From Candidatus Chromulinivoraceae bacterium (lineage in GTDB: Bacteria; Patescibacteriota; Saccharimonadia; Saccharimonadales; Saccharimonadaceae): a stretch of DNA of 64,000 nt. Both the position numbers and the translations under genes were made by a program. The stretch is from assembly GCA_035478595.1 (NCBI GenBank), contig DATIJL010000016.1, forward strand, positions 62,001-126,000, given 5' to 3'. The notes below the pieces were generated by a model. It did no database searches. It was not told the DNA's origin and saw only the letters and a program-made list of their open reading frames with translations. Positions 1 through 64,000 of this stretch are shown one piece after another (position 1 is the stretch's first letter; every line of letters starts with the position of its first letter).

Positions 1-524
1 CGCACTTCGGCGAGAGTAGCCTCAAGTCCGCGAATCTGCGTCTCGGCGGTCTCTCGTTTCGTGTTTGCGCGGCTTGTGCGTCTCTGCTCTTTCTCGAACG
101 CCGCCCGTAGGGCTGTGATCGTTCCTTCGAGTGTGGTGATCTGCTCGCGTAGGAGTTGCTCGACGGACGGTTCAGCCTCCTCCGGCTCACTTGTGGCCGG
201 CCTTCGGGAGGCTTGACCAGGTCGAGTCTTCGTGACTCTCACTGATCCGTTGCCTGTCGTGAAGGTGCGGGGCACCTGCAGCAGTGACTGACGTGGAGCG
301 ATGTAGATGACGTTCCCAGCAAGCACTCCTTCGAGGAGTCCGATCTTCCTTGCGCGGTGCAGACCGCGGAGTATGATCGCTATCTCTGCTGGGGGAAGAT
401 CTACTTCTGCTCCGAGCGCACGAGGCGCGTCAGAGACTACTTGCGGGTCTCCCGTCTCTTCTAGACGTTCGAACAGAGCTTCTGCTGCTCGTAGAACGGC
501 AGCTCGCTTCTCCTCTTTATTCAT
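1..524 (-). CDS. Orphan G+C-rich gene, partial (N-terminal 174 aa), helix-turn-helix-like plus coiled coil
   Basis: The reading frame is open from ATG at 524 to the window edge, so the C-terminus is missing. A Shine-Dalgarno GGGAGAAGG directly precedes the start and a TATAAT-like box lies about 45 nt upstream. The first ~75 residues are helical with alternating charged and aliphatic positions (AEIAIILRGLHRARKIGLLE), resembling a small winged-helix domain. A Pro/Arg/Thr-rich linker follows, then a heptad-like coiled coil rich in Leu, Glu and Arg. Bases 1-60 are 37/60 G+C by my count, well above neighbouring core genes. I do not recognise the family. A small DNA-binding or scaffold protein is possible, but that is inference. 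It shares base composition and isolation with five other orphans in this window. Confidence 0.6.
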   Translation of the reverse strand, partial: MNKEEKRAAVLRAAEALFERLEETGDPQVVSDAPRALGAEVDLPPAEIAIILRGLHRARKIGLLEGVLAGNVIYIAPRQSLLQVPRTFTTGNGSVRVTKTRPGQASRRPATSEPEEAEPSVEQLLREQITTLEGTITALRAAFEKEQRRTSRANTKRETAETQIRGLEATLAEV

Positions 525-641
525 CCTTCTCCCTAATCGTGATCGAGGACGATAAAATTATATCATTTTTTTCGAATAAATGCAAAACACACCATGCTTA
601 GAAGGACGAGTAATGACGCTGGCTGTTCGTGCCATCTTTTG

Positions 642-685
642 CTCATAAAAAACACGACCATTTTTCAGGTCGTGTTTTTTATGAG
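642..685 (-). terminator. Intrinsic terminator after rplK (bidirectional)
   Basis: Perfect inverted repeat CTCATAAAAAACACGACC / GGTCGTGTTTTTTATGAG around an 8-nt loop, with T tracts on both strands. It ends the rplK transcript 13 nt past its stop codon and may also stop plus-strand transcription. Confidence 0.9.
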
Positions 686-697
686 ATTGAAGTGGGA

Positions 698-1123
698 TTA
701 GTCGACGACTTCGACACCCATTGAGCGTGCGGTGCCGGCGATAACTTTAACGCGACCATCCATATCGATAGCGTTAAGGTGGTCTTTCTTAGATTCTGCG
801 ATAGCTTCAAGCTGCGCGCGAGTAATCTTACCAACCTTTTCGGCGTGTGGTTTGCTGCTACCTTTTTTGATACCGATAGCTTCGCGGATAGCGTCGTCTA
901 CTGGCTGACCAAGAGACTTCCAGGTAAAGGTACGGTCTTCGAACACTTGGAGGTGAACGATAACGTCTTTACCCATATCGCCTTTGGTAGCGTCGTTAAA
1001 TGGGTTAATGAAATCCATCATGTTCAGGCCCCATTGACCGAGGGTAGAACCTACTGGAGGACCTGCAGTTGCGCGGCCGGCTGGCACGCGGAACTTGATG
1101 TTTCCGATAACTTTTTTAGCCAT
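698..1123 (-). CDS. rplK: Ribosomal protein uL11
   Basis: This is 50S ribosomal protein L11, which with 23S rRNA forms the GTPase-associated centre where elongation factors act. The 141-aa length matches the family. The N-terminal GRATAGPPVGSTLGQWGLN segment is the diagnostic proline-rich motif and the C-terminal domain carries the rRNA-binding GTARSMGVEV end. Unlike the usual secE-nusG-rplK-rplA order, rplK stands alone: a terminator follows immediately, rplA (L1) is not adjacent, and nusG-secE lie about 7 kb away. It has its own good promoter (1177-1205). Confidence 0.97.
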   Translation of the reverse strand: MAKKVIGNIKFRVPAGRATAGPPVGSTLGQWGLNMMDFINPFNDATKGDMGKDVIVHLQVFEDRTFTWKSLGQPVDDAIREAIGIKKGSSKPHAEKVGKITRAQLEAIAESKKDHLNAIDMDGRVKVIAGTARSMGVEVVD

Positions 1124-1176
1124 TGAATTATTTTCCTTCTTTTGTACTCGTATTACCGAGTGCGTAACGGTTATTT

Positions 1177-1205
1177 ATTGTAGCAAAAACGTTCTGGTTT
1201 TTCAA
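1177..1205 (-). promoter_or_regulatory. rplK promoter
   Basis: On the minus strand, TTGAAA (1205-1200), a 17-nt spacer and TACAAT (1182-1177) match the sigma-70 consensus. This leaves a leader of roughly 45 nt with an AGAAGGAAAA ribosome-binding region before the rplK ATG. Confidence 0.8.
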
Positions 1206-1246
1206 GGTGGTCACTATAAAATAAAAACTCCCAAGGGGACTGATCC

Positions 1247-1282
1247 GACCCGGTGCTCGCGGTAAAATGCGAGCACCGGGTC
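1247..1282 (-). terminator. Perfect 14-bp G+C-rich hairpin after orphan gene
   Basis: GACCCGGTGCTCGC (1247-1260) and GCGAGCACCGGGTC (1269-1282) form a 14-bp perfect stem with an 8-nt loop, 22 nt past the stop of the orphan gene. There is no immediate T tract, but TTTTTATTTT follows about 20 nt later on the minus strand. It is the same style of hairpin as after the other G+C-rich orphans. Confidence 0.7.
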
Positions 1283-1303
1283 GAATGAGGGATCTTGTCG
1301 GTA

Positions 1304-1729
1304 TTACCCAATCAGCTCCTTGTACGCACGGTTGACAGTGCGCGGGTTGCGGCACTCCGCCTCCAGTCGAGCGTACTTACGCCCGGCGCGGCAGCTGCCC
1401 CGCTGCCAGCTCTTCCTGGCGGAATTGTCAGCCTGGATGCTGGCGTAGAAGCTCTTGGTACCATGGTTCGCGCGAAGCTTGTACTTCTTGCCCACGCGAC
1501 TCATGGAGCGAGCAGCGGGGTTGACGCGGCGCGATTGCTGCGAGGTGGCGATTTGGCTCAGACCGTAGACCGTCCACGCGAGGTCGATTTCGCGCTGGAT
1601 CTTGGTGGTGTCGGGCTCTTCTTCGCCCCACGCCATCCACGCCAGTTCGATGTCGATTGTGCGGTTCAGGCTCACGAAGTCGAACGGCTCGACGATGCTG
1701 CTCTCGCGGGTGGAAACACTGATTGACAA
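1304..1729 (-). CDS. Orphan G+C-rich gene, basic 141-aa protein of unknown function
   Basis: I do not recognise this protein. It begins with TTG at 1729, placed about 9 nt after a GAGGAGC ribosome-binding site; no better ATG exists in frame. The N-terminal half is mixed and acidic (AWMAWGEEEPDTT), while the C-terminal half is strongly basic (RVGKKYKLR, KSWQRGSCRAGRKYARL), which suggests nucleic-acid or membrane-surface binding (inference). Bases 1501-1560 are 39/60 G+C, far above neighbouring eno. It has its own TTGACA promoter and its own perfect hairpin, so it looks like a self-contained single-gene unit inserted between rplK and eno. Transfer from a high-G+C organism is plausible but not shown. 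Confidence 0.6.
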   Translation of the reverse strand: MSISVSTRESSIVEPFDFVSLNRTIDIELAWMAWGEEEPDTTKIQREIDLAWTVYGLSQIATSQQSRRVNPAARSMSRVGKKYKLRANHGTKSFYASIQADNSARKSWQRGSCRAGRKYARLEAECRNPRTVNRAYKELIG

Positions 1730-1780
1730 GAGTGCTCCTCGTATTGGTCACCAGTACTTACACTGGCGAACTGGTTGCTT

Positions 1781-1808
1781 ATATTATCATATTGCTTATA
1801 ATTGTCAA
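1781..1808 (-). promoter_or_regulatory. Promoter of the 1304-1729 orphan gene
   Basis: Minus-strand TTGACA (1808-1803), a 16-nt spacer and TAATAT (1786-1781). A TGATCA palindrome lies just upstream of the -35 box. The promoter is A+T-rich although the gene it drives is G+C-rich. Confidence 0.6.
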
Positions 1809-1874
1809 TGATCATGTTGTAATGTGACCTCTTTCGCTATGCATAAGCGAGGTGTAATATAGGACTGCAAGTAA

Positions 1875-3178
<1,304 letters not shown>

Positions 3179-3179
<1 letters not shown>

Positions 3180-3805
3180 TGGCATATCTGGTACTTGTCC
3201 GTCACGGACAGTCTGAGTGGAACCTTCTAGGCCAATGGACGGGTCTTACGGATGTATCTTTAACGGATGATGGCCGTGAAGAAGCCCGCCGAGCTGCACG
3301 TACACTAGAAGATATCGATCTTCATCGTGCCTATACCTCAAAATTGAAACGCGCCAAGCATACACTCGATGAGATTATGGAGCATCTGGATTACAAGGAC
3401 ATTCAGCGAAGTGAGCACGAAGAGCTTAACGAACGCGACTACGGCGATCTAACCGGCAAAAACAAGTGGCAGGTCAAAGAAGAATATGGCGAAGAGAAGT
3501 TTATGAAATGGCGTCGTAGCTGGGATCACCCCGTGCCGGGCGGCGAAACTCTCAAAGACGTTTCCGGTCGCGTACTTCCTTTTTATGAACAACATATTCT
3601 CAATGATCTCAAAAACGGTAAAAATGTTATTGTAGCAGCACATGGCAATTCACTACGCGCACTCATAAAACACCTCGATAGAATCGCCGATGATGACGCG
3701 CATACGGTTGAGATTATGACCGGTGAAGTCATAGTGTATGAGGTCGGCGAAGCTGGCGAGCTGCTTAAAAAAGAGATTCGTCTAACGAATGATAAAAAAG
3801 TCTAA
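3179..3805 (+). CDS. gpmA: 2,3-bisphosphoglycerate-dependent phosphoglycerate mutase
   Basis: It interconverts 3- and 2-phosphoglycerate, the step just before enolase. The histidine-phosphatase signature LVRHGQSEWN near residue 8 carries the phospho-accepting His; ERDYGDLTGKNK and the second catalytic motif AAHGNSLRAL (about residue 158) are intact. The 208-aa length is slightly shorter than typical 230-250 aa family members, mainly at the C-terminus. It is co-transcribed with eno via a TAATG overlap, giving a two-gene lower-glycolysis operon. Confidence 0.95.
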
Positions 3806-3817
3806 AACTTAACCACT

Positions 3818-3852
3818 CATCGTGCTTATGGTTTATACTAAAAAGCACGATG
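3818..3852 (+). repeat. 10-bp inverted repeat flanking a promoter and containing a start codon
   Basis: CATCGTGCTT (3818-3827) and AAGCACGATG (3843-3852) are perfect inverted copies. Between them lies TATACT (3834-3839), and the right arm contains the ATG of the next gene. A transcript reading in from gpmA would fold this hairpin and bury the start codon; a transcript starting at the internal promoter would lack the left arm. Confidence 0.6.
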
Positions 3853-4389
3853 AAAAAGCTATCAGGCCGTGTGGTGAGCGTCAATATTCTAGGTCTTCTA
3901 GGATATATGAGCTCGCTACTGGCCTGGTTGTTATTTGTGGCTGCTTTTTTTGTGTTGCTTGCCGATAGTTCTTTTATGACTATGCCGAATAATCAGCCGT
4001 TTGTACAAATACTTCCTATTCCGGATAACTTGACCGGTGTTGCGTCTATGGCTAGCTATGGAGTTACGGCTGTCGCCATTATCGTCACGATAATTATTTT
4101 TATAGCATTTCCATACTTTGTAAGTAAGAACTTATCCCGATTCATGCGATATATTCTTAAGGCTTTTAAAATAACCCAAACAAACTGGCATATGTGGCTC
4201 GTTAAGGGGCTTGTGACAGCTCTTCCAGCTGTTGGTCTTGCAATCATGACGCTGTGTGGTGTTCAAGGAGATACGGCAGTTGCAATCTATGTTGTCGTAT
4301 TCTTTGCTGCTCTGCTTGCCTTTGCTCTTTTTTCTTTTCAATATTTTCTAGCTTGGCGTCTCGAGGTTGCTTCAAGAGATATTTGGTAA
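3850..4389 (+). CDS. Uncharacterised four-helix membrane protein
   Basis: A 179-aa protein with about four predicted transmembrane helices: residues ~12-38, ~55-85, ~115-137 and ~145-168. A small polar loop follows helix 1 and a basic loop (KNLSRFMRYILKAFK) lies between helices 2 and 3. No catalytic motif is visible and I do not recognise the family. The ATG lies 10 nt after a TATACT box, which suggests a nearly leaderless transcript, and sits in one arm of an inverted repeat. It is followed by the binding-protein/histidine-kinase genes, but those have their own TTGACA promoter, so a functional link is uncertain. Confidence 0.65.
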   Translation: MKKLSGRVVSVNILGLLGYMSSLLAWLLFVAAFFVLLADSSFMTMPNNQPFVQILPIPDNLTGVASMASYGVTAVAIIVTIIIFIAFPYFVSKNLSRFMRYILKAFKITQTNWHMWLVKGLVTALPAVGLAIMTLCGVQGDTAVAIYVVVFFAALLAFALFSFQYFLAWRLEVASRDIW

Positions 4390-4403
4390 AGCTGAAACGG
4401 GGC

Positions 4404-4433
4404 TTGACAGACGGGACTGCTTTCACGGATGAT
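4404..4433 (+). promoter_or_regulatory. Promoter of the binding-protein/kinase operon
   Basis: TTGACA (4404-4409, perfect consensus), an 18-nt spacer and GATGAT (4428-4433, 4/6 match). It lies 15 nt after the stop of the preceding gene and leads to a ~25-nt leader with GAGGG before ATG 4465. Confidence 0.55.
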
Positions 4434-4464
4434 AAATACAACATATAAGCATGAGGGTTTTACG

Positions 4465-5658
4465 ATGCCGGAAGATGAAATACCAAATCTGTTGCATGCG
4501 GGTGGCGAAACAAATGGATTACCAGTTGCGAATAAACCTAAGAAGAAATGGCTTATACCTTTGTTGATCGGCCTTACGGTACTTATAGTAGTAGTCGCTG
4601 GTGCTTGGGCCTATATGCGATACGAGGCTTCAATTGTGCAGAAGAAACCAGCTATTAAGGTTGGTGTATTGATGGCCTTTACCGGAGGTTCTAGTAATAT
4701 GGGCTACGGCACAATGAAAGGTATCCAGCTGGCTAAAAAACAGTTGAATGCAGATAATATCGAACTTGTACAAGCAGACTCACATTGCGACCCACAAACT
4801 GCAAAGAGCGCAATGCAATCGCTAATAGATAAGGGCGTTGTTGCAGTTATTGGAGACGGCTGTTCGAGTGCTTCTCTTGCAGCTCTTCCACTGGCTAATA
4901 GTAATAAAATCCCTATGGTCAGCCCATCGGCATCTTCCGTAACACTCTCCATACCAAATGACTATTTCTTTCGGGTAATTCCTTCGGATAATTACCAAGC
5001 TGCTTATATGGCTAAGGCCATTCGCGACAAAGGTATTACGCGCGTTGCCGTATTCTACACAAACGAGCCGTATGGCTCGGCAATGAGTACAAGTTTCCAG
5101 GAACAATTTAAAACACTTGGCGGACAAGTGGCGGCAACTTCATATGCCGAACCAGACGATATTAACCTGACGACTGAGATGCAGAAACTTAAGGCGGTTA
5201 ATCCGCAAGCGATCTTTATTGCACCTAACTCTCTCGTGACGGCAACGGCAGCTGTTCAGGTGGCGCGTAACGTAGGGCTCGTGGTACCGTTGTTTGGCGG
5301 GGACGTCATGTATGACAAAACCCTTATTTCTAATGCACCGACAGCGTCGAATGGATTGACGATTACCACATTCCCTACAGGATCAGATACATTTAAAAGA
5401 TTAATGCTTAATGAATATAAAGTCAGCGAGCAGCTTTATGCCGCTCCACAGGCCTACGATGCTTTTGAAGCGATCTACCGCACGATTAGTAGTGGTGCAA
5501 CAACAGGTGAAGCAATCCATAGCGCATTACCATCAATTAACTTTAAGGGTATGTCGGCAGATATATCGTTTGACCAAAATGGAGAAGAGCCGGGCACAAA
5601 CTACACTTACGACCTGCTTCAGGTAGAAAGCGGCATCTTTACGCCAGTGGCTCGATAG
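4465..5658 (+). CDS. Membrane-anchored branched-chain-amino-acid-type periplasmic binding protein (Peripla_BP_6)
   Basis: A type I solute-binding protein of the LivJ/AmiC class. Residues ~30-52 (LIPLLIGLTVLIVVVAGAW) form an uncleaved membrane anchor after a short cytoplasmic tail. The extracytoplasmic part begins with the typical IKVGVLMAFTGGSSNMGYG strand-loop, followed by GDGCSSASLAALPLANSNKIPMVSPSAS and the inter-lobe segments ending in YDLLQVESG. The start at ATG 4465 follows GAGGG; an ATG at 4429 would lie inside the promoter. No ABC permease or ATPase genes follow. Instead a histidine kinase starts 4 nt downstream, so the protein probably presents a ligand to that kinase rather than feeding a transporter. 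The ligand is unknown; amino acids or amides are the family norm. Confidence 0.88.
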   Translation: MPEDEIPNLLHAGGETNGLPVANKPKKKWLIPLLIGLTVLIVVVAGAWAYMRYEASIVQKKPAIKVGVLMAFTGGSSNMGYGTMKGIQLAKKQLNADNIELVQADSHCDPQTAKSAMQSLIDKGVVAVIGDGCSSASLAALPLANSNKIPMVSPSASSVTLSIPNDYFFRVIPSDNYQAAYMAKAIRDKGITRVAVFYTNEPYGSAMSTSFQEQFKTLGGQVAATSYAEPDDINLTTEMQKLKAVNPQAIFIAPNSLVTATAAVQVARNVGLVVPLFGGDVMYDKTLISNAPTASNGLTITTFPTGSDTFKRLMLNEYKVSEQLYAAPQAYDAFEAIYRTISSGATTGEAIHSALPSINFKGMSADISFDQNGEEPGTNYTYDLLQVESGIFTPVAR

Positions 5659-5662
5659 CATA

Positions 5663-8237: not shown

Positions 8238-8250
8238 GCGCTGTTGTTTT
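8224..8250 (+). terminator. Intrinsic terminator of the sensory operon
   Basis: ACAGCGCC / GGCGCTGT stem with a 5-nt loop followed by TGTTTTTAT; the stem overlaps the stop codon of the response regulator. A-rich sequence on the other side lets it also serve the convergent nusG transcript. Confidence 0.85.
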
Positions 8251-8267
8251 TATGTAACTCTATTGAG

Positions 8268-8813: not shown

Positions 8814-8822
8814 TGTTTTCTC

Positions 8823-12089: not shown

Positions 12090-12785
12090 TTAAATAGATG
12101 GCGTCTCTTTTTTGAGGCTTCGGCGATGCGCCTTGTAGTGAGGGTCGACTGTTTCGACCACATTCCAGAATTCTGTTGAGTGATTCATGTGCACAGTATG
12201 GCTTAGCTCATGTATAAGCACGTAGTCGATAAGCTCAAACGGGAGTTTCATGAGCGCAATGTTGAGGCTTATGGTGCCATTGGAGCTGCAACTTCCCCAG
12301 CGACCGCTAGCATGTGAAAATCTAACTTTTTCGTAGTCGTAACCACCATGCTGAGCCAGATATGCGAGACGCTTTGTAAGGTAGCTTTTTGCTTCGATGC
12401 GGAGTGCCTCGATGACGGTATCGCGAATAGCGCGCGACACCTCGATGTCATCAATCGTCCGGTCAGCCGGTACGGAGGCGATGATCTGCTGGCCGTGTCG
12501 AGAGACTGTGGTTTTAGCAGATGTCGTCTGTCGTACAATAAGCGTATGACTCTTACCTATCTGCATGCCATGTTCAAAGGTTGTATCGCTCGATTGTTCA
12601 GCAAGCATGGCACGAAGCTGTGGCCTGGATGATTTGATAAGGCGCTTAACTAAAAATATAGGTGCATAGAGTGGTAGCGAAGCGCGCAATCTTCCGTCAG
12701 GTGCAATACGAATACGCACGTGTGAGGCCTTGGCACTCCGACGAAGTGTAATCGTTCCGAATTCATCATCTGTAATTGTAGGCAA
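12090..12785 (-). CDS. YgjP/DUF45-family zinc metallopeptidase
   Basis: A 231-aa protein of the M48-like DUF45 group. The zinc-binding HExxH is present in LIHELSHTVHMNHSTEFW, where NHSxxFW supplies the third ligand region. The upstream RFSHASGRWGSCSSNGTISLN segment is also family-typical. It is cytosolic with no signal peptide. It begins with TTG 12785 preceded by GAGG and lies 11 nt downstream of the P-loop kinase gene, so the two form an operon. The substrate is unknown. Confidence 0.88.
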   Translation of the reverse strand: MPTITDDEFGTITLRRSAKASHVRIRIAPDGRLRASLPLYAPIFLVKRLIKSSRPQLRAMLAEQSSDTTFEHGMQIGKSHTLIVRQTTSAKTTVSRHGQQIIASVPADRTIDDIEVSRAIRDTVIEALRIEAKSYLTKRLAYLAQHGGYDYEKVRFSHASGRWGSCSSNGTISLNIALMKLPFELIDYVLIHELSHTVHMNHSTEFWNVVETVDPHYKAHRRSLKKETPSI

Positions 12786-12796
12786 GTAGCTGTCCT

Positions 12797-13390
12797 CTAC
12801 CGAATCGTTATACTACGTCGGCCGGGCTTCTCTGAATCGGGGCGAACAGGTGCGGCAGTATGGCGGGAAATGGATGCGCGGGGCTCGGTGAGCTTTTTTA
12901 ATATGACTTTAGCCTGAGTTGCGTAGGTGTGCTTGCCACTTAGAACAACTGGCTTTTCTATTGCGGTTGGCGCAGAGAAGCGGCGTACCAAGTGATCATA
13001 CTCCGCAGGCGTGAGTGACCGACTCGAACCAACTTTGCTAAGTTTTAACGTACGACTTTTGGCTGTTACGGGGTCGGTCTGAACCCACACTAAGAGAGTA
13101 CAGTAGCCGGCGGCCACTGCCCTACGAGTGAGTTCACCACGTGCCACGCGTGTATCGGCAAAACCGTCTACTATAATAGATTGCTGAGTTTTTAGAAGCT
13201 CATCGAGCTGGTCATATGCGATTGCGTCGACGGCCTCAGTATCTTTTTGAAAATGTATTGCGATTTTTTCACGACATACATATGGCGCACGGAATGTGTC
13301 AGCGAATTTTTCAGCAAAAAAAGACTTACCACTACCCGGGACGCCTACCATAATAATCATGTGCGGTTTAGTAAGGCTCAGCGATTTCAT
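12797..13390 (-). CDS. P-loop nucleotide kinase (AAA_33 type)
   Basis: A 197-aa predicted ATP-dependent kinase. The Walker A motif GVPGSGKS lies near residue 17, and IIVDGFADTR provides the Walker B-like acidic strand. VWVQTDPVTAKSRTLKL forms the LID-type arginine region, as in polynucleotide-kinase/gluconate-kinase relatives. The C-terminal tail is basic and Pro/Arg-rich. I start at ATG 13390: TATAAT ends 7 nt upstream, whereas the earlier ATG at 13399 overlaps that box. The substrate is not deducible. First gene of an operon with the DUF45 peptidase. Confidence 0.8.
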   Translation of the reverse strand: MKSLSLTKPHMIIMVGVPGSGKSFFAEKFADTFRAPYVCREKIAIHFQKDTEAVDAIAYDQLDELLKTQQSIIVDGFADTRVARGELTRRAVAAGYCTLLVWVQTDPVTAKSRTLKLSKVGSSRSLTPAEYDHLVRRFSAPTAIEKPVVLSGKHTYATQAKVILKKLTEPRASISRHTAAPVRPDSEKPGRRSITIR

Positions 13391-19949: not shown

Positions 19950-20165
19950 ATGCGTGTTGTTTGGACTATTCTATCGCTCGTAGGTGCTTGGGTGAGCTTC
20001 AACGCGTTGAAGCTGGCGCTGACCGCCGCTTCCAACCCTCCGCCCAACCTCCCCTATGAGGACCGCACACAGTACGTGAACGTAGCCTGGGTAGGGCTCG
20101 TCGTCCTGGTGGCGTTGACGACCGGCTCAATCTACAAGGCGGTTCGTTCATTCAAGAAGAGGTGA
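19950..20165 (+). CDS. Orphan G+C-rich small two-helix membrane protein
   Basis: 71 aa with two hydrophobic helices (residues ~3-26 and ~45-64), separated by a Pro-rich loop (NPPPNLPYED), and a basic C-terminus (KAVRSFKKR). AGGAGAA lies 5 nt before ATG 19950. Bases 19981-20160 are 107/180 G+C by my count versus 24/60 in a stretch of the neighbouring HIT gene (19321-19380). It has its own TAATATAAT-rich upstream region and its own 12-bp hairpin. No family is recognised. The size, charge pattern and isolation are compatible with a phage-type or toxin-like membrane peptide, but nothing proves it. Confidence 0.6.
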   Translation: MRVVWTILSLVGAWVSFNALKLALTAASNPPPNLPYEDRTQYVNVAWVGLVVLVALTTGSIYKAVRSFKKR

Positions 20166-20171: not shown

Positions 20172-20218
20172 GCCCCGCAACTTTGTAGGCAGTAGTCCCG
20201 TGAAGTTGCGGGGCTATT
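20172..20218 (+). terminator. Perfect 12-bp hairpin terminator (orphan gene / alr)
   Basis: GCCCCGCAACTT (20172-20183) and AAGTTGCGGGGC (20203-20214), then TATTTGCTTTT. It is shared with the convergent alr gene, whose stop lies 16 nt beyond. Confidence 0.8.
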
Positions 20219-43984: not shown

Positions 43985-44797
43985 TTATCTTGCTGCATCG
44001 CGGATTGCTTGAGCTACTGTACTAATATAGAGCCGACCTCGCACTTCATGTCCTGCAACGATAGCCGTAAGGTTGGCGTGCTTGTTTTGCTTAGTAAGGT
44101 ATCGAAGATTTTTTATAATAACAACCGGATCAAGCAGCCCGCATATCACAGAAATCGGTATTCTCAATCTTATCGCATCCCGAAGTGAGGTCTGATTAAT
44201 AATACTCGCCTCGAGCGCGTTCATGTAAATTGGCGCATTTTCGGGAGTAAGGCTAAACGTGGCATTTACAAGCCCCATTCGGGTAACAAGCGCCGCAACT
44301 CGCATAAACTCATCTGGTCGCTTCCCTGCCAGTTTAAAAAGGTTTATAAGTATTCTGTCGCTACTCGGCATAAGACGGGGGTTTGATTGGTCTTCCTTAT
44401 AAAAAGGAGGGCTGCAAAGAATGAGTGAACTTACCAGGAGCGGGTAGCGTTTAGCTACCTCAACCGCAACGAGGGCTCCTAAGGAATGCCCGACGATAAT
44501 TACCCGCCCAGTAAGGTGCAATTTAAATAATGTTGCGATAACAGAACGAGCCTGAGTTTTAGCACTATATATAGCCCACTCTGGTCGAGGAGATTGTCCA
44601 AAACCCAAAAGATCGACAGTTACTACCCGTATATCTTTTGGCAAACTATCTATAACACTACTCCATGCTTTGCCCGAGTTACCAATTCCGTGAATAAATA
44701 AAACCGTTACCTTGGGATGTTTTTCTTTTGTAGACCGAGTATCCGCGTAAAGTGCGTAGGGAACCTTTAGCCAGCGGTGCAAAAGAATATCGATCAT
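43985..44797 (-). CDS. Alpha/beta hydrolase
   Basis: 270 aa. The nucleophile elbow is GHSLGA (Ser ~105), the oxyanion region is LFIHGIGNSGKAW, and the catalytic acid and His are in ICGLLDPV and VAGHEV. No signal peptide. The substrate is unknown. It lies 48 nt downstream of the rRNA methyltransferase gene on the same strand. Confidence 0.88.
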   Translation of the reverse strand: MIDILLHRWLKVPYALYADTRSTKEKHPKVTVLFIHGIGNSGKAWSSVIDSLPKDIRVVTVDLLGFGQSPRPEWAIYSAKTQARSVIATLFKLHLTGRVIIVGHSLGALVAVEVAKRYPLLVSSLILCSPPFYKEDQSNPRLMPSSDRILINLFKLAGKRPDEFMRVAALVTRMGLVNATFSLTPENAPIYMNALEASIINQTSLRDAIRLRIPISVICGLLDPVVIIKNLRYLTKQNKHANLTAIVAGHEVRGRLYISTVAQAIRDAAR

Positions 44798-45941: not shown

Positions 45942-45970
45942 GGGGATGGTGTCGCTATGACACCATCCCC
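45942..45970 (-). terminator. Perfect 12-bp hairpin after orphan gene
   Basis: GGGGATGGTGTC / GACACCATCCCC with a 5-nt loop, 28 nt past the stop of the orphan on the minus strand; no T tract. Confidence 0.7.
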
Positions 45971-45998: not shown

Positions 45999-46295
45999 TC
46001 ACAGTTGCGTAAGAGCCTCTCGGACGATGTCAAGGACCTCCTTGGTCTCGTAGCAGCTCTGATAGCCACCCCTCTCTACCCTACGGTTTCGCTCGACGAT
46101 GTCATCGTGTAGATCCTGGAGGGGCTTCGGGAGAGCAGTGACGTTGACCTGAGCCTCGATGCAGATGTCCTGCAGGGCGCTCTGGACGTCACCAGGCATC
46201 TGTACGCCGCCCATCTGGACGAGCGACATGTACCACGCCTGAACAGTCTGGCGGACGGTGGCGGTAGTGACCGCGCTTACAGTCATTATCCTCAC
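45999..46295 (-). CDS. Orphan G+C-rich gene, ~98-aa soluble protein of unknown function
   Basis: The frame opens at GTG 46295 (or ATG 46286). It encodes a mainly helical acidic protein (VQSALQDICIEAQVNVTALPKPLQDLHDDIVERNRRV) with two Cys and no membrane segment. Bases 46141-46200 are 37/60 G+C. A promoter TTGACT-N17-TATAAA lies upstream, and a perfect hairpin follows. No family is recognised. It sits in the seam between the divergent-looking rRNA methyltransferase promoter and the rpsI terminator. Confidence 0.55.
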   Translation of the reverse strand: MRIMTVSAVTTATVRQTVQAWYMSLVQMGGVQMPGDVQSALQDICIEAQVNVTALPKPLQDLHDDIVERNRRVERGGYQSCYETKEVLDIVREALTQL

Positions 46296-55154: not shown

Positions 55155-55175
55155 ATCTTTTTATTCCTTTCCTTC

Positions 55176-56352: not shown

Positions 56353-56353
56353 C

Positions 56354-57000: not shown

Positions 57001-57001
57001 A

Positions 57002-57633: not shown

Positions 57634-57634
57634 A

Positions 57635-58273: not shown

Positions 58274-58680
58274 TATTTGCTCTCCTTTGCAGACTCAGCT
58301 GCAGGTGCTGCAACTGGCTTCTTCTTAGGTTTTTCAGCGCCAGTTACTTCAACCAAGATGTGGCTCGAGCGCTTCTGGAATGGAAGTGCGCGACCACGGC
58401 TTGCAGGTTTGAACCTCTTCAAACGTGGACCTGCCGTTACCGACAGAGTTTTGATTTGAAGTGTCTTACCGTCAAGACCATGGTTGTTTGTGGCGTTTGC
58501 AGCAGCGCTCGCGATAGCCTTTTTAACAGGCGTCGATGCGCGTTTAGGAACATTTTCAAGGATAACAAGTGCGTCAGCTACAGTGCGACCGCGAACGAGG
58601 CTTGCAACAAGGCTAACCTTGCGTGGCGTTTGGTCAACACCCTTAGCGTAGGCACGTACAACGATAGGTTGATCAGCCAT
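58273..58680 (-). CDS. rplV: Ribosomal protein uL22
   Basis: 135 aa. AYAKGVDQTPRKVSLVASLVRGRTVADALVIL and RGRALPFQKRSSHILVEV match; the tunnel-lining loop GPRLKRFKPASRGRA is normal. A C-terminal Lys/Ala-rich tail is extra. Confidence 0.97.
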   Translation of the reverse strand: MADQPIVVRAYAKGVDQTPRKVSLVASLVRGRTVADALVILENVPKRASTPVKKAIASAAANATNNHGLDGKTLQIKTLSVTAGPRLKRFKPASRGRALPFQKRSSHILVEVTGAEKPKKKPVAAPAAESAKESK

Positions 58681-58946
58681 TACTTCTTATCCTTTCCGCC
58701 ATGCTTACGGAACTTACGAGTTGGACTAAACTCACCGAGTTTGTGGCCAACCATGTTTTCCGAAACAAGCACAGGTACGTGTACACGACCGTTGTGAACA
58801 GCGATCGTTCGGCCTACCATCTCTGGGCTAATGGTACTAGCACGTGCCCAGGTCTTGATGATAGTTCGATCGTCTTGGCTTAAAGCAGCTACTTTTTTAG
58901 CAAGCTTGAAGTCGACGAATGGGCCTTTTTTGAGTGAACGACTCAT
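58680..58946 (-). CDS. rpsS: Ribosomal protein uS19
   Basis: 88 aa. [22 protein letters not shown] and [37 protein letters not shown] are typical. It lies in the 30S head next to S13. Confidence 0.98.
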
Positions 58947-58949
58947 ATA

Positions 58950-59789
58950 CTACCTCTTCCTCTTCGCTTCATGGCGACTTCTTACAATCATCTTGCTCGT
59001 ATCCTTACGACGACGAGTACGGTAACCAAGCGTTAACTTACCCCATGGTGTCTTAGGTGTACCACCCACGCCATGAGCACCACCGTCACCACCACCGTTA
59101 GGGTGATCTACAGCGTTCATAGCCTTACCGCGTACGCTTGGGCGAATACCCTTGCGACGGTTACGACCAGCGGAACCAATCTTGATGTTCTGGTGTTGAA
59201 CGTTACCAACGACACCGAGTGCAGCTGTCGCTTCCAAACGGAAACGGCGAACTTCACCTGAAGGCAGGCGCACCTGTGCGTAGTCGCCTTCTTTGGCCAT
59301 TAGCTGTGCTTTTGTGCCAGCTGAACGAACCATCTGAGCGCCCTTGCCCGGGTTGATCTCAATTGCATAGATCTGAGAACCGACAGGGATACGAGATAAA
59401 GGCATGCGGTTTGAAGACTCAACAGGAGCCTCATCGCCGCTTACTATTACCTTGCCTTTTGTCATTTGCGTATCAGCAAGGATGTAGTGATACAAACCGT
59501 GCTGATCTTTTACACGGGCGATACGAGCAGAGCGGTTAGGATCGTATTCGATCTCTTCAACCGTAACCGTAAGGCCTGGTGCAAGCCGGTGATTAACCAA
59601 CCGGTAGTGGCGTTTTACACCGCCACCACGGTGACGAACAGTAATACGGCCATCGTTATTGCGACCAGCATTCTGTTTTTTGCTTTTTAGCAGGCTTTTA
59701 AGCGGTTTACGAGTGGTAACTTCGCTTAAGTCCTGGCTAGTCATACCGCGGCGAGCAGGAGTCGTTGGGTTGTAAGCTTTAATAGGCAT
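58950..59789 (-). CDS. rplB: Ribosomal protein uL2
   Basis: 279 aa. It is essential at the peptidyl-transferase side of the 50S subunit. RGGGVKRHYRLV, RIPVGSQIYAIEINPGKGAQMVRSAGT and the conserved VRGKAMNAVDHPNGGGDGGAHGVGGTP region with the functionally key His are intact. Confidence 0.98.
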   Translation of the reverse strand: MPIKAYNPTTPARRGMTSQDLSEVTTRKPLKSLLKSKKQNAGRNNDGRITVRHRGGGVKRHYRLVNHRLAPGLTVTVEEIEYDPNRSARIARVKDQHGLYHYILADTQMTKGKVIVSGDEAPVESSNRMPLSRIPVGSQIYAIEINPGKGAQMVRSAGTKAQLMAKEGDYAQVRLPSGEVRRFRLEATAALGVVGNVQHQNIKIGSAGRNRRKGIRPSVRGKAMNAVDHPNGGGDGGAHGVGGTPKTPWGKLTLGYRTRRRKDTSKMIVRSRHEAKRKR

Positions 59790-60103
59790 TACTTCTTCTC
59801 CTCTTCAGTCTGCGTATCAAAGACTTGAATGCTGTTGCCCTCTGCGAGGGTAACGTAGGCTTTCTTACTATCTTTACGGTGCGTTGTTCCTGGGTAGCGG
59901 TTTTTACCGCGAGAGAAACGAACAGCTTTGCCGCTTTGGACAAGCGTCTTGATACCAGTTACTTTTACTTCGAACTGTGCCTCTACTGCAGCCATGATCT
60001 CTTGCTTGTTAGCGTCGAGTGGCACGTTAAAGAGATAAACATTCTGGGCGCCAAGCTTGTAAGCTTTTTCAGTAGCGCGTGGAATAACAGTAATAGTTTT
60101 CAT
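59789..60103 (-). CDS. rplW: Ribosomal protein uL23
   Basis: 104 aa, docking site of trigger factor and SRP at the tunnel exit. VIPRATEKAYKLGAQNVYLFNVPLDANKQEIMAAVEAQFEVKVTGIKTLVQSGKAVRFSRG matches. The stop overlaps the rplB start. Confidence 0.96.
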   Translation of the reverse strand: MKTITVIPRATEKAYKLGAQNVYLFNVPLDANKQEIMAAVEAQFEVKVTGIKTLVQSGKAVRFSRGKNRYPGTTHRKDSKKAYVTLAEGNSIQVFDTQTEEEKK

Positions 60104-60104
60104 A

Positions 60105-60725
60105 TTACGCCTCCTCCTTTGTCAGCCATTTTTTAATAGCTTCAAGGGCAGATGGAGTTATAACAATGTGGTCAGCGTTCAAAAGGTAGTACACGCTTAG
60201 GTAGGTTGCACTGACAAGTAGGATGTTCTGAATGTTAGCCGTTGAGCGAATCAACTCTGGAGTCTTTTCACTTACAACCATCAATACATTGCGGTCGAGC
60301 TTATTGTCAGCGAGAAACTTAACCATCTCTGCAGTTTTTGTAGCAGTAGCAGGTACGTCTTTTACGACGATCTTGCCAGCTTCACTCGCGAGTGTCAGTG
60401 CCTGGCGAAGCGCAACGCGCTTGCTGGTTGTACTGATTCGTAGTTTGTAGTTCTCGTTACCGCGAGGGCCAAATACGACACCACCACCACGCCAAATAGG
60501 GTTACGACTTGAACCAAAACGTGCGCGGCCAGTACCCTTTTGCTTCCATGGCTTTTTACCACCACCGCGAACTTCGCCACGCTGCTTTGTTGTAGCACTT
60601 GCAAGACGGTTGTTGGCTAGGAACGAATCGTAGGCAAGTTTTAGCAGTTCGTGGTTAGGAACCTCTACTGCAAAAACTTCTTTAGGGAGAGCAGTCGATA
60701 CAGCTGCTTTTTTAGTCTCAGCCAT
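60105..60725 (-). CDS. rplD: Ribosomal protein uL4
   Basis: 206 aa. RLASATTKQRGEVRGGGKKPWKQKGTGRARFGSSRNPIWRGGGVVFGP is the tunnel-loop hallmark. In other bacteria L4 autoregulates the S10 operon by binding its leader; a structured leader exists here before rplC (61359-61412), but binding is untested. Confidence 0.97.
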   Translation of the reverse strand: MAETKKAAVSTALPKEVFAVEVPNHELLKLAYDSFLANNRLASATTKQRGEVRGGGKKPWKQKGTGRARFGSSRNPIWRGGGVVFGPRGNENYKLRISTTSKRVALRQALTLASEAGKIVVKDVPATATKTAEMVKFLADNKLDRNVLMVVSEKTPELIRSTANIQNILLVSATYLSVYYLLNADHIVITPSALEAIKKWLTKEEA

Positions 60726-61336
60726 TATGCTTCACCTCCAATAATAATAAGACCCTTCTTAGGACCTGGAACAGCGCCCTTAAGGCCGATCAAGTTTGAA
60801 GCGGCGTCAACATACGCTACCTCAAGGTTCTTAACCGTGACACGGTCGTGACCCATACGGCCAGCCATGCGTTTACCCTTAAAGACCTTCTGTGGATACA
60901 TCGATCCAATAGAACCAGGCTTACGAACGTTTCCGTTACCACCGTGGGTCTTTTTGCTTGTATTAAAGTTGTGGCGTTTTACCGTACCGGCAAAACCTTT
61001 ACCCTTGCTTGTGCCAGTCGCGTCCACCAAATCGCCTAGCTCAAACTTAGTTACATCAATGACGTCCCCGACCTTAAGGTCTGGTAGTTCATCGACACGA
61101 AATTCCCGAATATGCTTCGGGGTGACACCGGCTGTCTTTACGTGACCAGCCACGGCCTTGCTCAGGTTCTTACCCTCACCATATGCCACCTGAACTGCGT
61201 TGTAGCCGTCGGTTTCGACGGACTTGACCTGAGTCACAGTTAAGGGGCCAGCTTGAATAAGTGTTACTGGAACAGCAACACCAGACTCGCTGATGATTTG
61301 GGTCATACCAATTTTGGTACCGAGAAGTGCTTTCAT
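60725..61336 (-). CDS. rplC: Ribosomal protein uL3
   Basis: 203 aa. MKALLGTKIGMTQIISESGVAVPVTLIQAGP and GFAGTVKRHNFNTSKKTHGGNGNVRKPGSIGSMYPQKVFKGKRMAGRMGHDRVTV are diagnostic. It is the first gene of the operon; rpsJ (S10), normally upstream, is absent from this locus. GAGGGC lies before the ATG. Confidence 0.98.
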   Translation of the reverse strand: MKALLGTKIGMTQIISESGVAVPVTLIQAGPLTVTQVKSVETDGYNAVQVAYGEGKNLSKAVAGHVKTAGVTPKHIREFRVDELPDLKVGDVIDVTKFELGDLVDATGTSKGKGFAGTVKRHNFNTSKKTHGGNGNVRKPGSIGSMYPQKVFKGKRMAGRMGHDRVTVKNLEVAYVDAASNLIGLKGAVPGPKKGLIIIGGEA

Positions 61337-61358
61337 TGCCCTCTTGCTCCCACTTAAA

Positions 61359-61412
61359 ATTCTTGGTGGCTGGGGGTTTCTACTGAGGTAGACCTACCAA
61401 TTCACCAAGAAT
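61359..61412 (-). promoter_or_regulatory. Structured 5' leader of the ribosomal operon
   Basis: ATTCTTGGTG and CACCAAGAAT form a perfect 10-bp outer stem, with an inner GGTA/TACC helix, in the ~105-nt leader before rplC. No T tract follows, so it is not a simple terminator. Location and form suggest a ribosomal-protein-binding leader. Confidence 0.6.
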
Positions 61413-61444
61413 GAGTTGTTATTACGTAATAAAGTTACCTAGCA

Positions 61445-61473
61445 ACTATAGCACACTCACCCTAGTGAGTCAA
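61445..61473 (-). promoter_or_regulatory. Main promoter of the L3-to-S9 ribosomal operon
   Basis: Minus strand TTGACT (61473-61468), 17 nt, TATAGT (61450-61445). Confidence 0.85.
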
Positions 61474-61492
61474 CGATTTTACAGGGTACTTG

Positions 61493-61529
61493 CCATCCCG
61501 CGACGCCACCTGAGCGGGTCGCGGGATGG
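61493..61529 (-). terminator. Perfect 12-bp hairpin after orphan lipoprotein gene
   Basis: CCATCCCGCGAC / GTCGCGGGATGG with a 13-nt loop, 15 nt past the stop codon; no T tract. Confidence 0.7.
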
Positions 61530-61544
61530 ACATTCGAGCGTGTC

Positions 61545-62036
61545 CTAGCAAACAGGTGCCTGCTTGCCGAATCCGCCCTTGATCCAGGCGGCACCAACAT
61601 AGCCGATCCAGCCATCGTTCTTAGGCAATGCCTTGGGGCCCTCGCCAGGCCTCAGCGGCTCGAGCTTGTCACTAGGGACAAGAATGCCATACCACGCGTC
61701 TGTCTCTTGACCAGTCTGGTCGCGATACATTTCGCCAGTGGTTTGGCAGACAATATGGACGGTCATGCCGTCCATGGGCCACTTGTCGCGCAGCGATACC
61801 GTTTCGCCCTGAACCAGCTTCGGCGCCCACTGAGTCGGCAGCCAACAGGCCACCTCCCTGCACGTAGCGCTGAAGTCAGACAGCGAGACGGTTGCGTCGA
61901 ACGGCGCAGTGACGACGCTGGAGACAGTCGGGCTTGCCGTAGCGGTGTTCTTTCCATCTCCACCGCCAGAACTACAGCCGGTTGCCAGACCCAAGGTCAT
62001 AACACCAACCACTGCGATACGCTTCCACGAGCTCAT
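61545..62036 (-). CDS. Orphan G+C-rich lipoprotein, 163 aa
   Basis: ATG 62036 follows AAGGTGG. Residues 1-20 form a lipoprotein signal (MSSWKRIAVVGVMTLGLATG), with Cys21 in a permissive lipobox (ATGC) followed by a Ser/Gly/Thr-rich linker. The mature domain has several Cys (TCREVACW, VHIVCQTTGEM and the C-terminal APVC), Trp-rich strands (DAWYGI, DGWIGYVGAAWI) and resembles small SH3-like actinobacterial secreted proteins only in general style. Bases 61561-61680 are 74/120 G+C. It is an isolated unit with its own hairpin; function unknown. It is the only orphan of the set with a clear export signal. Confidence 0.7.
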   Translation of the reverse strand: MSSWKRIAVVGVMTLGLATGCSSGGGDGKNTATASPTVSSVVTAPFDATVSLSDFSATCREVACWLPTQWAPKLVQGETVSLRDKWPMDGMTVHIVCQTTGEMYRDQTGQETDAWYGILVPSDKLEPLRPGEGPKALPKNDGWIGYVGAAWIKGGFGKQAPVC

Positions 62037-62131
62037 GTGGTTCGCCACCTTAATCGAAGTTGATGACCTCTTAGCCACCACTATCATTATTACATAGTTA
62101 TCTTCGTAGCCCACCGTGGTAAAATACGAGC

Positions 62132-62898
62132 ATGAAACTTGCATGGCACTCGCGCAAACTCGGGGTAGTTATCATTGCACTATTTATCGTTGGGTCATTG
62201 TTGTTTCGCTGGTTGTAGCGCTAACCCACTCATGGAATCTTGCTGCACCAAAAGCACCCCAGGTAGCCATAAAAACGACGAGTCCCGTTGCCACAGCTCC
62301 TGCGCCAGTTCCAAAAATACCCCCATTCGATAAAAATAAGTATTCACACATCGACCCTGCAAGTCTTCGGGTTGTCGTTAATAAACAGCATCCTATGAAC
62401 CCAAAAGATTACGTACCAAGTGATATTATCCTCGGTCGCGACGGCTATCAATACAGTTTGCGTATTAGTGCCGATCTAAACGCTCTCGTGGATGCTGCTG
62501 CTCAGCAGGGCGTTACTCTAAATATGAGTAGCGCCTATCGTTCGTATGCTAACCAGACGGCTTTATTCAACAACTACACCGCCCAATATGGCCAAGCCAC
62601 AGCCGAGACCATTAGCGCTAGGCCAGGTTACAGTGAGCACCAAACGGGCCTTGCCGTAGATATTGGCGGAGCCTCAAGTCCAAACTGTAACTTTAACGCC
62701 TGTTTTGGTGATACGGTTGAAGGCAAATGGCTCGCAGCACACGCTAACGATTTTGGCTTTGTTATTCGATATCAAAAAGAAACCACTAACCTCACCGGAT
62801 ACGCTTACGAACCTTGGCATGTACGCTACGTCGGTCATGAACTGGCTGCAGAGTATAAAAAAGAAGGCACTACGTCACTTGAAGCATTTTTGACATAA
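62132..62898 (+). CDS. VanY-type D-alanyl-D-alanine carboxypeptidase, with a probable frameshift in the signal anchor
   Basis: The catalytic domain is intact: SAYRSYANQTALF, zinc ligands in SEHQTGLAVDIGG and YEPWHVRYVG. It trims D-Ala from peptidoglycan peptides outside the membrane. The natural start appears to be ATG 62132, 6 nt after TAAAAT, encoding MKLAWHSRKLGVVIIALF, a good anchor, but that frame stops at 62216-62218. The catalytic frame is open from ATG 62143 with a weaker hydrophobic stretch (RWVIVVSLVVAL). Either the second start is used, or a -1 shift or assembly indel lies between 62143 and 62215. Confidence 0.85.
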
Positions 62899-62920
62899 CT
62901 GGCGGCGCAGTTTACGCTAA

Positions 62921-63250
62921 CTAAATAACGATGCCTGAGGGCGCAAAGTAGCAAAGAATCGTTATCACTACCAAGATGGCATACCATATTTTTCGGTCAG
63001 CCTGATACTTTTCAAATTTGCGCACAAGTAAAAGACCAACTAAAAAACCGACAGGAATAGCACTCAGAGGTAATCCAAGCCATGTCACTGGTGTTTGGAA
63101 TTTAACCCAAAAAGTCCCAAGTAATACAAATACTACAAGCTTTAGAAAATAAGTACTATCAGACTCAAAGATCTTTTCGTAGCCCTTGCGGCTAACGGTC
63201 GCGGGGCGATTACGTGCATATGTTCTGGGTTTTTGTTTTTGCGTTGCCAT
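62921..63250 (-). CDS. Small membrane protein, unknown
   Basis: 109 aa: a basic N-terminal tail (~28 residues, rich in Lys/Arg) and three hydrophobic helices (~35-50, ~58-76, ~88-108). The extended -10 box TGATATACT ends 8 nt before the ATG (leaderless type). No family recognised. Confidence 0.65.
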   Translation of the reverse strand: MATQKQKPRTYARNRPATVSRKGYEKIFESDSTYFLKLVVFVLLGTFWVKFQTPVTWLGLPLSAIPVGFLVGLLLVRKFEKYQADRKIWYAILVVITILCYFAPSGIVI

Positions 63251-63351
63251 TACCTGTCAGTATATCAAAAGTAACCATGAGTGCAAACGCTCTTGCGCAG
63301 CCAGTATTCTTAGGCCATACTGAAACCATACAACAAAACCTTGGAGGAATT

Positions 63352-63603
63352 ATGCCAGTAACCAAGAAAAAACAAGCACCTAAAAAGAAACCAAGCGAAA
63401 TGCGTTCTTTTGTACGCGCATCGAACCCTAAACCCTTTGTAGTATTTAAAATCACCCAGCAAACTATTTACTGGCTTATTATTGGCGGTCTTGTCCTAGG
63501 TTTTGGCATTTGGGTAATGTATCTTACCGTTCGTATTCATAGTATGTATGATGATATCCAGAGTGTTGGTCCTGACACTCACATGAATGTCATGCAACGA
63601 TAA
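63352..63603 (+). CDS. Small single-helix membrane protein, unknown
   Basis: 83 aa from ATG 63352, four nt after GGAGG. The N-terminus is Lys-rich (VTKKKQAPKKKPSEMR), followed by one helix (residues ~43-64) and a short outer tail. A promoter-like TTGCGC-N17-CATACT lies upstream. Not recognised. Confidence 0.65.
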   Translation: MPVTKKKQAPKKKPSEMRSFVRASNPKPFVVFKITQQTIYWLIIGGLVLGFGIWVMYLTVRIHSMYDDIQSVGPDTHMNVMQR

Positions 63604-63634
63604 GAACATACACATATTGTATTCCTCTTACCGT

Positions 63635-63657
63635 TAATAACATGTTATTATTTGACA
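63635..63657 (+). promoter_or_regulatory. 16-bp palindrome adjoining the -35 box of the last orphan gene
   Basis: TAATAACATGTTATTA (63635-63650) is a perfect palindrome, one base before TTGACA (63652-63657). It is a candidate operator for a dimeric regulator. Confidence 0.5.
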
Positions 63658-63693
63658 GGTCTGTCTTACGTTCACCCATAGAGGAAGGAAGCG

Positions 63694-64000
63694 ATGTCCC
63701 GGAACAGCCCCCTGTACTGGGCTTACCTGCTGACAACAATCTTCGCTTGCGGCTTTCTGATTGCCAATATGGCAACAACCAGGAATCCGTCTGCGAGGCT
63801 AGGATCTATCGGCATGATGTGCCTGGTCTTGGCCCTGACCCCAATCGTCACGCGACGATTGCGCAAGTCTCCACCTCTGCACCAACTCACCGCGTCAATT
63901 CGTACCCGCGCGCAGGAGTTGATCGACTCCGAGTGTGTACTGCTTGTCCCCTGTGATCGTGATCGTCCTAGCACCCAGAAGGTGCTCATTGGGGCGTCCG
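63694..64000 (+). CDS. Orphan gene, partial (N-terminal 102 aa), two-helix membrane protein
   Basis: Open from ATG 63694 (GAGGAAGG upstream) to the window edge. Helices at residues ~7-27 and ~36-54, then a basic cytoplasmic segment (RRLRKSPP) and a soluble part (ELIDSECVLLVPCDRD). Bases 63841-63900 are 34/60 G+C. The family is not recognised. It shares the isolated, self-promoted layout of the other G+C-rich orphans. Confidence 0.55.
   Translation, partial: MSRNSPLYWAYLLTTIFACGFLIANMATTRNPSARLGSIGMMCLVLALTPIVTRRLRKSPPLHQLTASIRTRAQELIDSECVLLVPCDRDRPSTQKVLIGAS

Follow-up and report, generated by a model that had tools for sequence, protein, structure and literature searches.

We analyzed a 64,000-nucleotide window of contig DATIJL010000016.1 from a Candidatus Chromulinivoraceae bacterium (Saccharimonadales; assembly GCA_035478595.1), in which six genes of high G+C content (GC) sit in the seams between other genes. 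The window corresponds to G000:C16:62001-126000, where G000 denotes the source genome (1.136 Mb in 19 contigs, 99.5% complete); relatives used for comparison are likewise given codes (G004, G013, G015, G023, G029, G035, G074, G081, G174 and so forth). Gene 1 lies beside rplK on the minus strand, where it occupies positions 1–524 of the window and continues to window position -174; its full-length product of 232 amino acids (aa) has a coiled-coil-type C-terminal half. Gene 2 (1304–1729, minus strand), between rplK and eno, starts with TTG behind an AGGAG site and encodes a basic orphan protein of 141 aa. Gene 3 (19950–20165, plus strand), between HIT and alr genes, encodes a 71-aa protein with two hydrophobic helices. 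The 95-aa product of gene 4 (45999–46286, minus strand), located between rpsI and a gene for an RsmB/F-type methyltransferase, probably starts at the ATG at 46286. Gene 5 (61545–62036, minus strand), between rplC and vanY, specifies a 163-aa protein that we classified as a lipoprotein from its N-terminus, by eye. Finally, gene 6 (63694–64000 within the window, plus strand), which ends 239 bases past the window, encodes 181 aa, with hydrophobic helices in the N-terminal part of the protein.

A preliminary description of this DNA had placed the six genes in seams, and both the sequence and the flanks named by Pfam agree with that placement. The named neighbors within the window are housekeeping genes; the names rplK and eno are our own assignments rather than scan results. 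The description had also regarded the six as compositional outliers, and this held when the other 54 genes of the window were used as reference. In GC and in GC at third codon positions (GC3), the values were 0.588 and 0.579 for gene 1, 0.617 and 0.817 for gene 2, 0.574 and 0.722 for gene 3, 0.594 and 0.740 for gene 4, 0.598 and 0.683 for gene 5, and 0.571 and 0.626 for gene 6. All exceed the maxima of the 54 reference genes (0.516 and 0.549; means of 0.456 and 0.416), with z-scores of 4.1–5.7 for GC and 3.6–8.9 for GC3. The claim that every gene is monocistronic had to be abandoned, since gene 1 overlaps the next gene (GC-rich, 367 aa), the two forming a GC-rich operon in which gene 1 comes first.

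A perfect stem was found 3' of four of the six genes, with 15 base pairs (bp) at 1246–1283 (gene 2), 12 bp around a 19-nucleotide loop at 20172–20214 (gene 3), 12 bp at 45942–45970 (gene 4) and 12 bp at 61493–61529 (gene 5). Those of genes 2, 3 and 5 are GC-rich and have no uridine tract (U-tract). All four stems had been described earlier, with lengths of 12–14 bp, and they do exist beyond chance, the first being longer than described. A 305.7-kb sample of G000 held 50 stems that pair perfectly over at least 11 bp, vs. 0–2 in five Markov resamples. This sample (27% of the genome) comprised the window, the rest of C16 minus its first 2 kb, and ten other contigs, represented by their first 20 kb or in whole. 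Arm GC was at least 0.6 in 15 of the 50 stems, none of which had a U-tract, compared with 18 of the remaining 35; the usual form of an intrinsic terminator, a stem followed by a U-tract, was thus seen in none of the 15 GC-rich stems.

The stem of gene 4 has a homologous counterpart in G023. Between the two, 12 of 12 pairs are kept, with three double changes and one G-U pair, and slid controls gave 0; as only two sequences enter this comparison, the same score was reached by 75 of 500 shuffles. The members of the gene 5 family in G004 and G174 each have their own, unlike perfect stem (14 and 15 bp, respectively), and gene 6 is followed, 88 nucleotides past its stop codon, by an ordinary stem with A/T tracts.

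The six genes, which had been presented as a set, belong to a wider class. Using two-state GC segmentation, we called 24 GC-rich segments totaling 18.6 kb in the G000 sample (25 before contig pieces were joined); genes 3 and 4, too short for segmentation, come in addition to these. A class confined to the window was therefore ruled out by the further segments in G000 and in its relatives. Of the 24 segments, 11 have a GC-rich stem at an edge that pairs perfectly over 10 bp or more, as opposed to 1.19 by random placement (maximum of 5 in 1000 trials). The same settings (GC offset of 0.13–0.15, stems of 10 bp) yielded 15 segments in 280 kb of G029 (7 with a stem), 14 in 290 kb of G023 (7 with a stem) and 11 in 305 kb of G004 (5 with a stem).

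Further afield, single stretches of genomes were surveyed with a GC offset of 0.14–0.15 around the median and a stricter stem rule (11 bp, no U-tract). Sixteen other genomes of the order held 5 segments in 276.6 kb, 2 of them with a stem, and 19 other genomes of the family held 14 in 368.9 kb, 1 with a stem; by omitting contigs below 8 kb, the survey had left out 4 of 20 order genomes and 1 of 20 family genomes. Stretches syntenic to the window contained no segment in G081 (50 kb) and G074 (48 kb) and one in G035 (52 kb). Taken together, these counts therefore indicate that the full design is concentrated in some lineages.

With regard to expression signals, we compared 17 units whose starts were chosen by hand, partly by their Shine-Dalgarno match. 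Their upstream regions have a mean GC of about one third, and a Shine-Dalgarno match of at least four bases is present in 16 of the 17, the starts having been picked in part by that very match. The best promoter-like match averaged 9.53 of 12 positions vs. 8.18 in shuffled sequence. For gene 2, a promoter-like TTGACA-N16-TAATAT lies at 1781–1808 (minus strand), with 10 of 12 positions matching. The proportion of shuffles that reached the observed upstream match was 3% for gene 1, 5% for gene 2, 18% for gene 3, 11% for gene 4, 64% for gene 5 and 90% for gene 6.

The shared design put forward in the preliminary description is broadly supported by these data, save that a comparison of 30 units revealed neither a leader nor a terminator shared by all. 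Six pairwise matches were detected between their upstream regions, namely one exact match of 25 nucleotides, corresponding to a transposon-like end, and five short A+T-rich ones; the three pairwise matches between downstream regions were all among homologues in the same seam. The units also differ from core genes in their stop codons, with TGA in 12 of 24 hand-listed units vs. 8 of 54 core genes, and in their codon use (Leu TTA, 0.00 vs. 0.14; Lys AAG, 0.89 vs. 0.41).

Core gene order is largely common to G000 and G023, G029, G081, G074 and G035, and four of the six genes (2, 4, 5 and 6) have a homologue in the same seam in another genus. In G029, a relative of gene 2 lies between eno and rplK (62% identity over 29 aa, diverged elsewhere), and a homologue of gene 6 (24% over 147 aa) lies directly past the same small gene (window 63214–63603). 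In G023, the homologue of gene 5 is found between rplC and the homologue of window 62921–63250, with 74 of 159 aligned residues identical, and that of gene 4 between rpsI and the homologue of window 43985–44797, with 34 of 94 identical. No homologue of genes 1 and 3 was found in the DNA examined; a GC-rich gene of G023 on the gene-1 side of rplK, considered as a relative of gene 1, turned out to be unrelated. In a separate observation, GC-rich proteins are encoded near rplK in three genera (L036 in G080, L037 in G068, L040 in G015), and they look like putative CdsA-type membrane enzymes.

Searches of 198 family genomes revealed a patchy distribution. Genes 2 and 6 each occur in G000 and G029 only (2 of 198), weak partial matches being set aside (gene 2 in G034, gene 6 in G000:C3, and likewise gene 5 in G071, G029 and G181). 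The gene 5 family is present in G000, G023, G004 and G174, in the latter two away from the rplC seam. At the gene-6 seam of G013, located by eye, a GC-rich gene considered as a relative of gene 6 proved unrelated to it, and seams therefore appear to be reused. Further, a unit beside rplK in G015 is present in only 1 of 13 genomes of that genus, so turnover can be quick. A GC-rich membrane-type protein is also common to G000 (L016:5906-6466) and G029 (L244:12756-13298), with 58% identity and a common neighbor; in G000, it is accompanied by a 15-bp GC-rich stem.

We then asked how the GC3 of such pairs relates to the depth of divergence. For G000 and G023, identity at core four-fold sites is 36.4% (27.9% at saturation), and for G000 and G029 it is 37.1% (26.9% at saturation), with core GC3 of 0.42 in G000, 0.44 in G023 and 0.49 in G029. 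Eight gene pairs were compared, six with G023 or G029 and two with G004, gene 6 being left out. Their normalized four-fold identity ranged from -0.06 to 0.25 on 16–65 sites, which is about core depth. Nevertheless, GC3 was alike on both sides: 0.82 and 0.85 for gene 2, 0.75 and 0.74 for gene 4, 0.68 and 0.64 (G023) or 0.68 and 0.66 (G004) for gene 5, 0.81 and 0.82 for L016, 0.94 and 0.87 for C16 53.8k, 0.72 and 0.71 for C16 11k (over 47 aa only), and 0.94 and 0.86 for L015 with G004.

By our own arithmetic, and provided that the pairs split with their genomes, neutral decay of GC3 from 1.0 toward the core level over the core depth would leave at most about 0.62–0.68. This value was exceeded on both sides by five of the six pairs with G023 or G029, narrowly for 11k, with gene 5 at the limit; the two G004 pairs were not included as core four-fold sites of G004 had not been measured. 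Since homologues occupy the same seams and synonymous sites are near saturation, the composition apparently persists in opposition to the trend of the genome itself. By descent or exchange, such genes seem to have long resided in genomes of this kind and to have stayed GC-rich. The plainest reading of this lasting high GC3 may be an exchange of GC-rich alleles within the family.

These findings bear on one alternative, in which the genes are recent, independent transfers from high-GC hosts whose composition has not yet ameliorated, common seams being hot spots or coincidence. Genes of recent horizontal origin are commonly recognized by a composition outside their genome's spread, as seen for all six, and by the lack of a same-position homologue in other genera, which does not apply to genes 2, 4, 5 and 6. 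We consider this alternative unlikely in view of the same-seam homologues in G023 and G029, whose four-fold sites are near saturation at equal GC3, and because the six and most other scanned units belong to no recognized family, unlike what would be expected of random host genes. In its favor are the patchy spread of the genes (2 of 198 genomes each for gene 6 and DUF397, and the same number for gene 2 apart from one weak partial match), the within-genus turnover of the G015 unit, the different gene in the G013 seam and the Kribbella-type DUF397 gene described below. Genes 1 and 3, with no homologues in the DNA examined, may be recent transfers.

The preliminary description had proposed one acquisition route, e.g., as cassettes or morons, and had named, as evidence that would speak against it, orthologues of equal composition at the same positions in distant genomes. 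Such orthologues were found in part, for genes 2, 4 and 5, and with four of the six genes having same-seam homologues in another genus, a single recent acquisition of intact cassettes is not upheld.

A donor type could be assigned to a single import, found in G004, where a GC-rich DUF397 gene of 79 codons lies beside rplC. By eye, it is preceded by a promoter-like TTGCAT-N17-TATAAT. When 84,980 species genomes were scanned, 54 close relatives were confirmed, each of them with an actinobacterial title. Those nearest to the G004 protein, 21 in number and 77–90% identical, consist of 20 from Kribbella and one record labeled Streptomyces. In these 21 loci, the DNA match sets in at codon 7 and runs out no more than 7 bases away from where the stop codon ends. 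Further, an alignment of five donor-type loci showed a leader and a hairpin common to them and absent from G004. As judged from the sequences, the G004 gene is an actinobacterial-type import, and this foreign open reading frame (ORF) is now framed by other signals. As the donor may have been an unsampled relative, the match does not prove a move of the coding sequence alone. The absence of the donor-type leader and terminator lends no support to the notion of intact cassettes, and a high-G+C host as the source, also suggested in the preliminary description, is shown for this gene of one relative and for none of the six. Two further DUF397 copies were noticed in G023 (L104 and L105), apparently as GC-rich single genes, one of them with an 18-bp perfect stem.

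None of the six proteins scored above the Pfam or NCBIfam cut-offs or reached an E-value below 0.01 against PHROG, genes 1 and 6 being scanned in full in some of these comparisons and as their window parts in others, in line with the earlier view that they belong to no recognized family. Matches below the cut-offs were of the coiled-coil type only for gene 1, to DUF4235 for gene 3 and to DUF6232 for gene 6, the latter two being actinobacterial families. Structure prediction gave a poor model for gene 5 (predicted local distance difference test score, pLDDT, of 45); for gene 4, with an input of two sequences, the best model is helical (pLDDT of 76), and its other four models reached 42–47. Among other GC-rich G000 genes, a DUF3558 match remained below the cut-off.

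Two observations on other elements were made in the course of these scans. Firstly, PF02467 (WhiB), considered as a tracer, was dropped as many copies are of native GC with long N-termini. Of the 198 family genomes, 42 carry it, spread over 20 of the 61 genera, and among 14 control genomes only Corynebacterium glutamicum does; the domain is sometimes the C-terminal part of a long native-GC protein, and the G000 copy is L180 (G000:C1:11385-11591). Secondly, two divergent MDR-NUDIX RNA motifs (Rfam RF02918), a family known from TM7, lie 57 bases apart in G000 (L007:12652-12711, minus strand, and 12768-12826, plus strand), in agreement with the preliminary description's label of Saccharibacteria.

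Another alternative is that the units are phage morons or mobile-element cargo common to both partners and left at seams. Morons are built in this way, as one gene equipped with a promoter and a hairpin of its own, and phages of Saccharibacteria co-targeted by actinobacterial spacers have been reported (PMC10746230). The searches provided no counterpart to this: the best PHROG match of the six had an E-value of 0.015, phage, plasmid and viral-contig searches, made for genes 2 and 5 among the six, were empty, no viral-contig relatives of profile A8 were found, and the named window neighbors are housekeeping genes. Mobile cargo draws support from the IS66 transposase found as one GC-rich segment and from a transposon-like end that adjoins GC-rich units at three of four junctions, the fourth being borderline. 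On balance, we regard this explanation as improbable, and somewhat more so than recent transfer.

The elements concerned were located as follows. The IS66-type transposase gene, GC-rich relative to its own genome, lies at L007:17862-19370 (minus strand). The transposon-like end, IS3-like by our own reading rather than by a search, is repeated at L008:1-141, L009:136-274, L010:1-141 and L012:11245-11384 (C2, C3, C4 and C6 of G000, respectively) and closes four contig ends, with a GC-rich unit directly adjoining three of them and a gene of borderline GC-richness the remaining one. In addition, a contig break with a 141-base overlap occurs just upstream of a GC-rich unit (L008:4447-4587 and L012:1-141), which may reflect strain variation.

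A purely native origin was also considered, in which fast-evolving resident genes would owe their GC to a local mutational or recombination bias, e.g., GC-biased gene conversion, with no foreign contribution. The similar GC3 on both sides of old pairs and the lack of a recognized family for the six would fit. However, the GC-rich stretch of genes 2 and 5 spans from the hairpin to the start codon, a boundary that regional bias would not respect, and GC drops to about one third upstream of the 17 units. The scarcity of segments in the 16 other order genomes and the imported DUF397 gene of G004 further argue against this explanation, which we hold to be very improbable.

The reading that we prefer, at somewhat less than even confidence, is that GC-rich ORFs were captured under signals of the recipient and later kept GC-rich by something other than recency. 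The six genes would thus represent a dispersed class of lineage-restricted accessory genes at the operon seams of a reduced-genome bacterium, mostly organized as single-gene transcription units with an AT-rich upstream region, a Shine-Dalgarno site and a GC-rich ORF, and with a GC-rich hairpin lacking a U-tract in about half of them. Their most likely source is the pool of high-GC genes in actinobacterial partners, as the gene of one relative suggests for the ORFs at large. They would have entered as little more than coding sequence, to be joined to the expression signals of the recipient, with natural transformation or a type IV system as conceivable routes. Natural transformation works in Saccharibacteria (PMC10633639), and a type IV system has been suggested as a possible importer of host DNA (PMC12102498).

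Under this preferred scenario, seams would serve as reusable sites of gene gain, loss or swap, and at least some resident units would persist across genera, their proteins evolving fast and their high GC3 being retained rather than drifting toward the genome norm. Termination or protection of the messenger RNA is the most likely role of the hairpin, whose pairing is preserved in the one case open to comparison (gene 4). A role in the interaction with the partner would suit lipoprotein, membrane, basic and coiled-coil products.

Several results weigh against this scenario. An edge stem is absent from 13 of the 24 segments; one segment is the IS66 transposase and another contains a transfer RNA (tRNA), both being among the 11 with a stem, so that 9 of 22 remain when they are removed. 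No perfect GC-rich stem of 10 bp was found at the 3' end of gene 6, nor one in its G029 homologue, and the DUF397 unit of G004 has none of 9 bp. A promoter match that no more than 5% of shuffles reach is confined, among the six, to genes 1 and 2. Recognized Pfam families are present in 5 of 28 other GC-rich G000 genes scanned (CDP-alcohol phosphatidyltransferase, bacterial PH domain, C39-type peptidase, acyltransferase and IS66 transposase). Because of the IS66 and tRNA segments, these five known families and the stemless DUF397 unit, our best explanation is slightly weakened and the mobile-element alternative slightly raised.

Further points concern origin and age. Actinobacterial origin is shown for none of the six, of which gene 5 alone was compared with Actinomycetia, and actinobacterial searches with another unit shared with G004 and with a secreted G004 unit gave 0 of 384 and 0 of 29, respectively. 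With the gene 5 profile, 115 of 374 Actinomycetia gave matches at E ≤ 0.01 (best, 2e-5), almost all of them confined to the signal-peptide part; these matches were taken as no support, and actinobacterial homologues of gene 5 were dropped. Underlying the saturation argument is the assumption that pairs and genomes split together; the argument rests on 16–65 sites per pair and draws on core genes that include ribosomal ones. When a tree was built from two ribosomal proteins, G000 did not cluster with G023 and G029, and exchange between lineages is therefore as possible as descent. Within the 3-kb surroundings of four pairs, a common neighbor was found in one (L016 with G029, the neighbor being 82% identical) and none in three.

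We also weighed a more far-reaching proposal, in which the units would be written in the dialect of the host and maintained by selection because the genes or their transcripts serve, at least at some stage, in the high-GC actinobacterial host cell on which such bacteria live. It is very doubtful that selection of this kind accounts for them, and just as doubtful that their sigma-70-type promoter, Shine-Dalgarno site, GC-rich codons, TGA-rich stops and U-less GC-rich hairpins are host-dialect features.

Foreign-looking composition is normally taken as a sign of recent transfer, and several genes here appear to have long been kept GC-rich. Our literature searches found no account of GC-rich seam genes of this kind. 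As a set that can be defined, the units offer candidates for partner interaction in poorly annotated bacteria, and where such genes are expressed becomes a testable question. In the Kribbella-type case, a gene has passed between a genome of the actinobacterium type and one related to the source organism, with the coding sequence alone still recognizable.

Phage morons are single genes with their own promoter and hairpin, atypical GC and an accessory function, and the units resemble them in all of these respects; they differ in lying between housekeeping operons and in the lack of phage homologues for the two genes searched. As in integron gene cassettes, one ORF is followed by a foldable inverted repeat. 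However, the units are dispersed and have their own upstream signals, and their hairpins differ in sequence, with 3' sequence in common only among seam homologues; on these grounds an integron array was ruled out, no search for an integrase or attC having been made. Agrobacterium transferred DNA (T-DNA) carries plant expression signals, and its genes are resident in one organism and written with the expression conventions of another. The units would be similar in this respect and differ in being scattered and in having AT-rich upstream regions. Finally, the Kribbella-type DUF397 unit of one relative is akin to genes that symbionts acquire from their hosts; unlike these, it matches by its coding sequence alone, and the units are for the most part orphans, several of them seemingly old with their GC3 kept.

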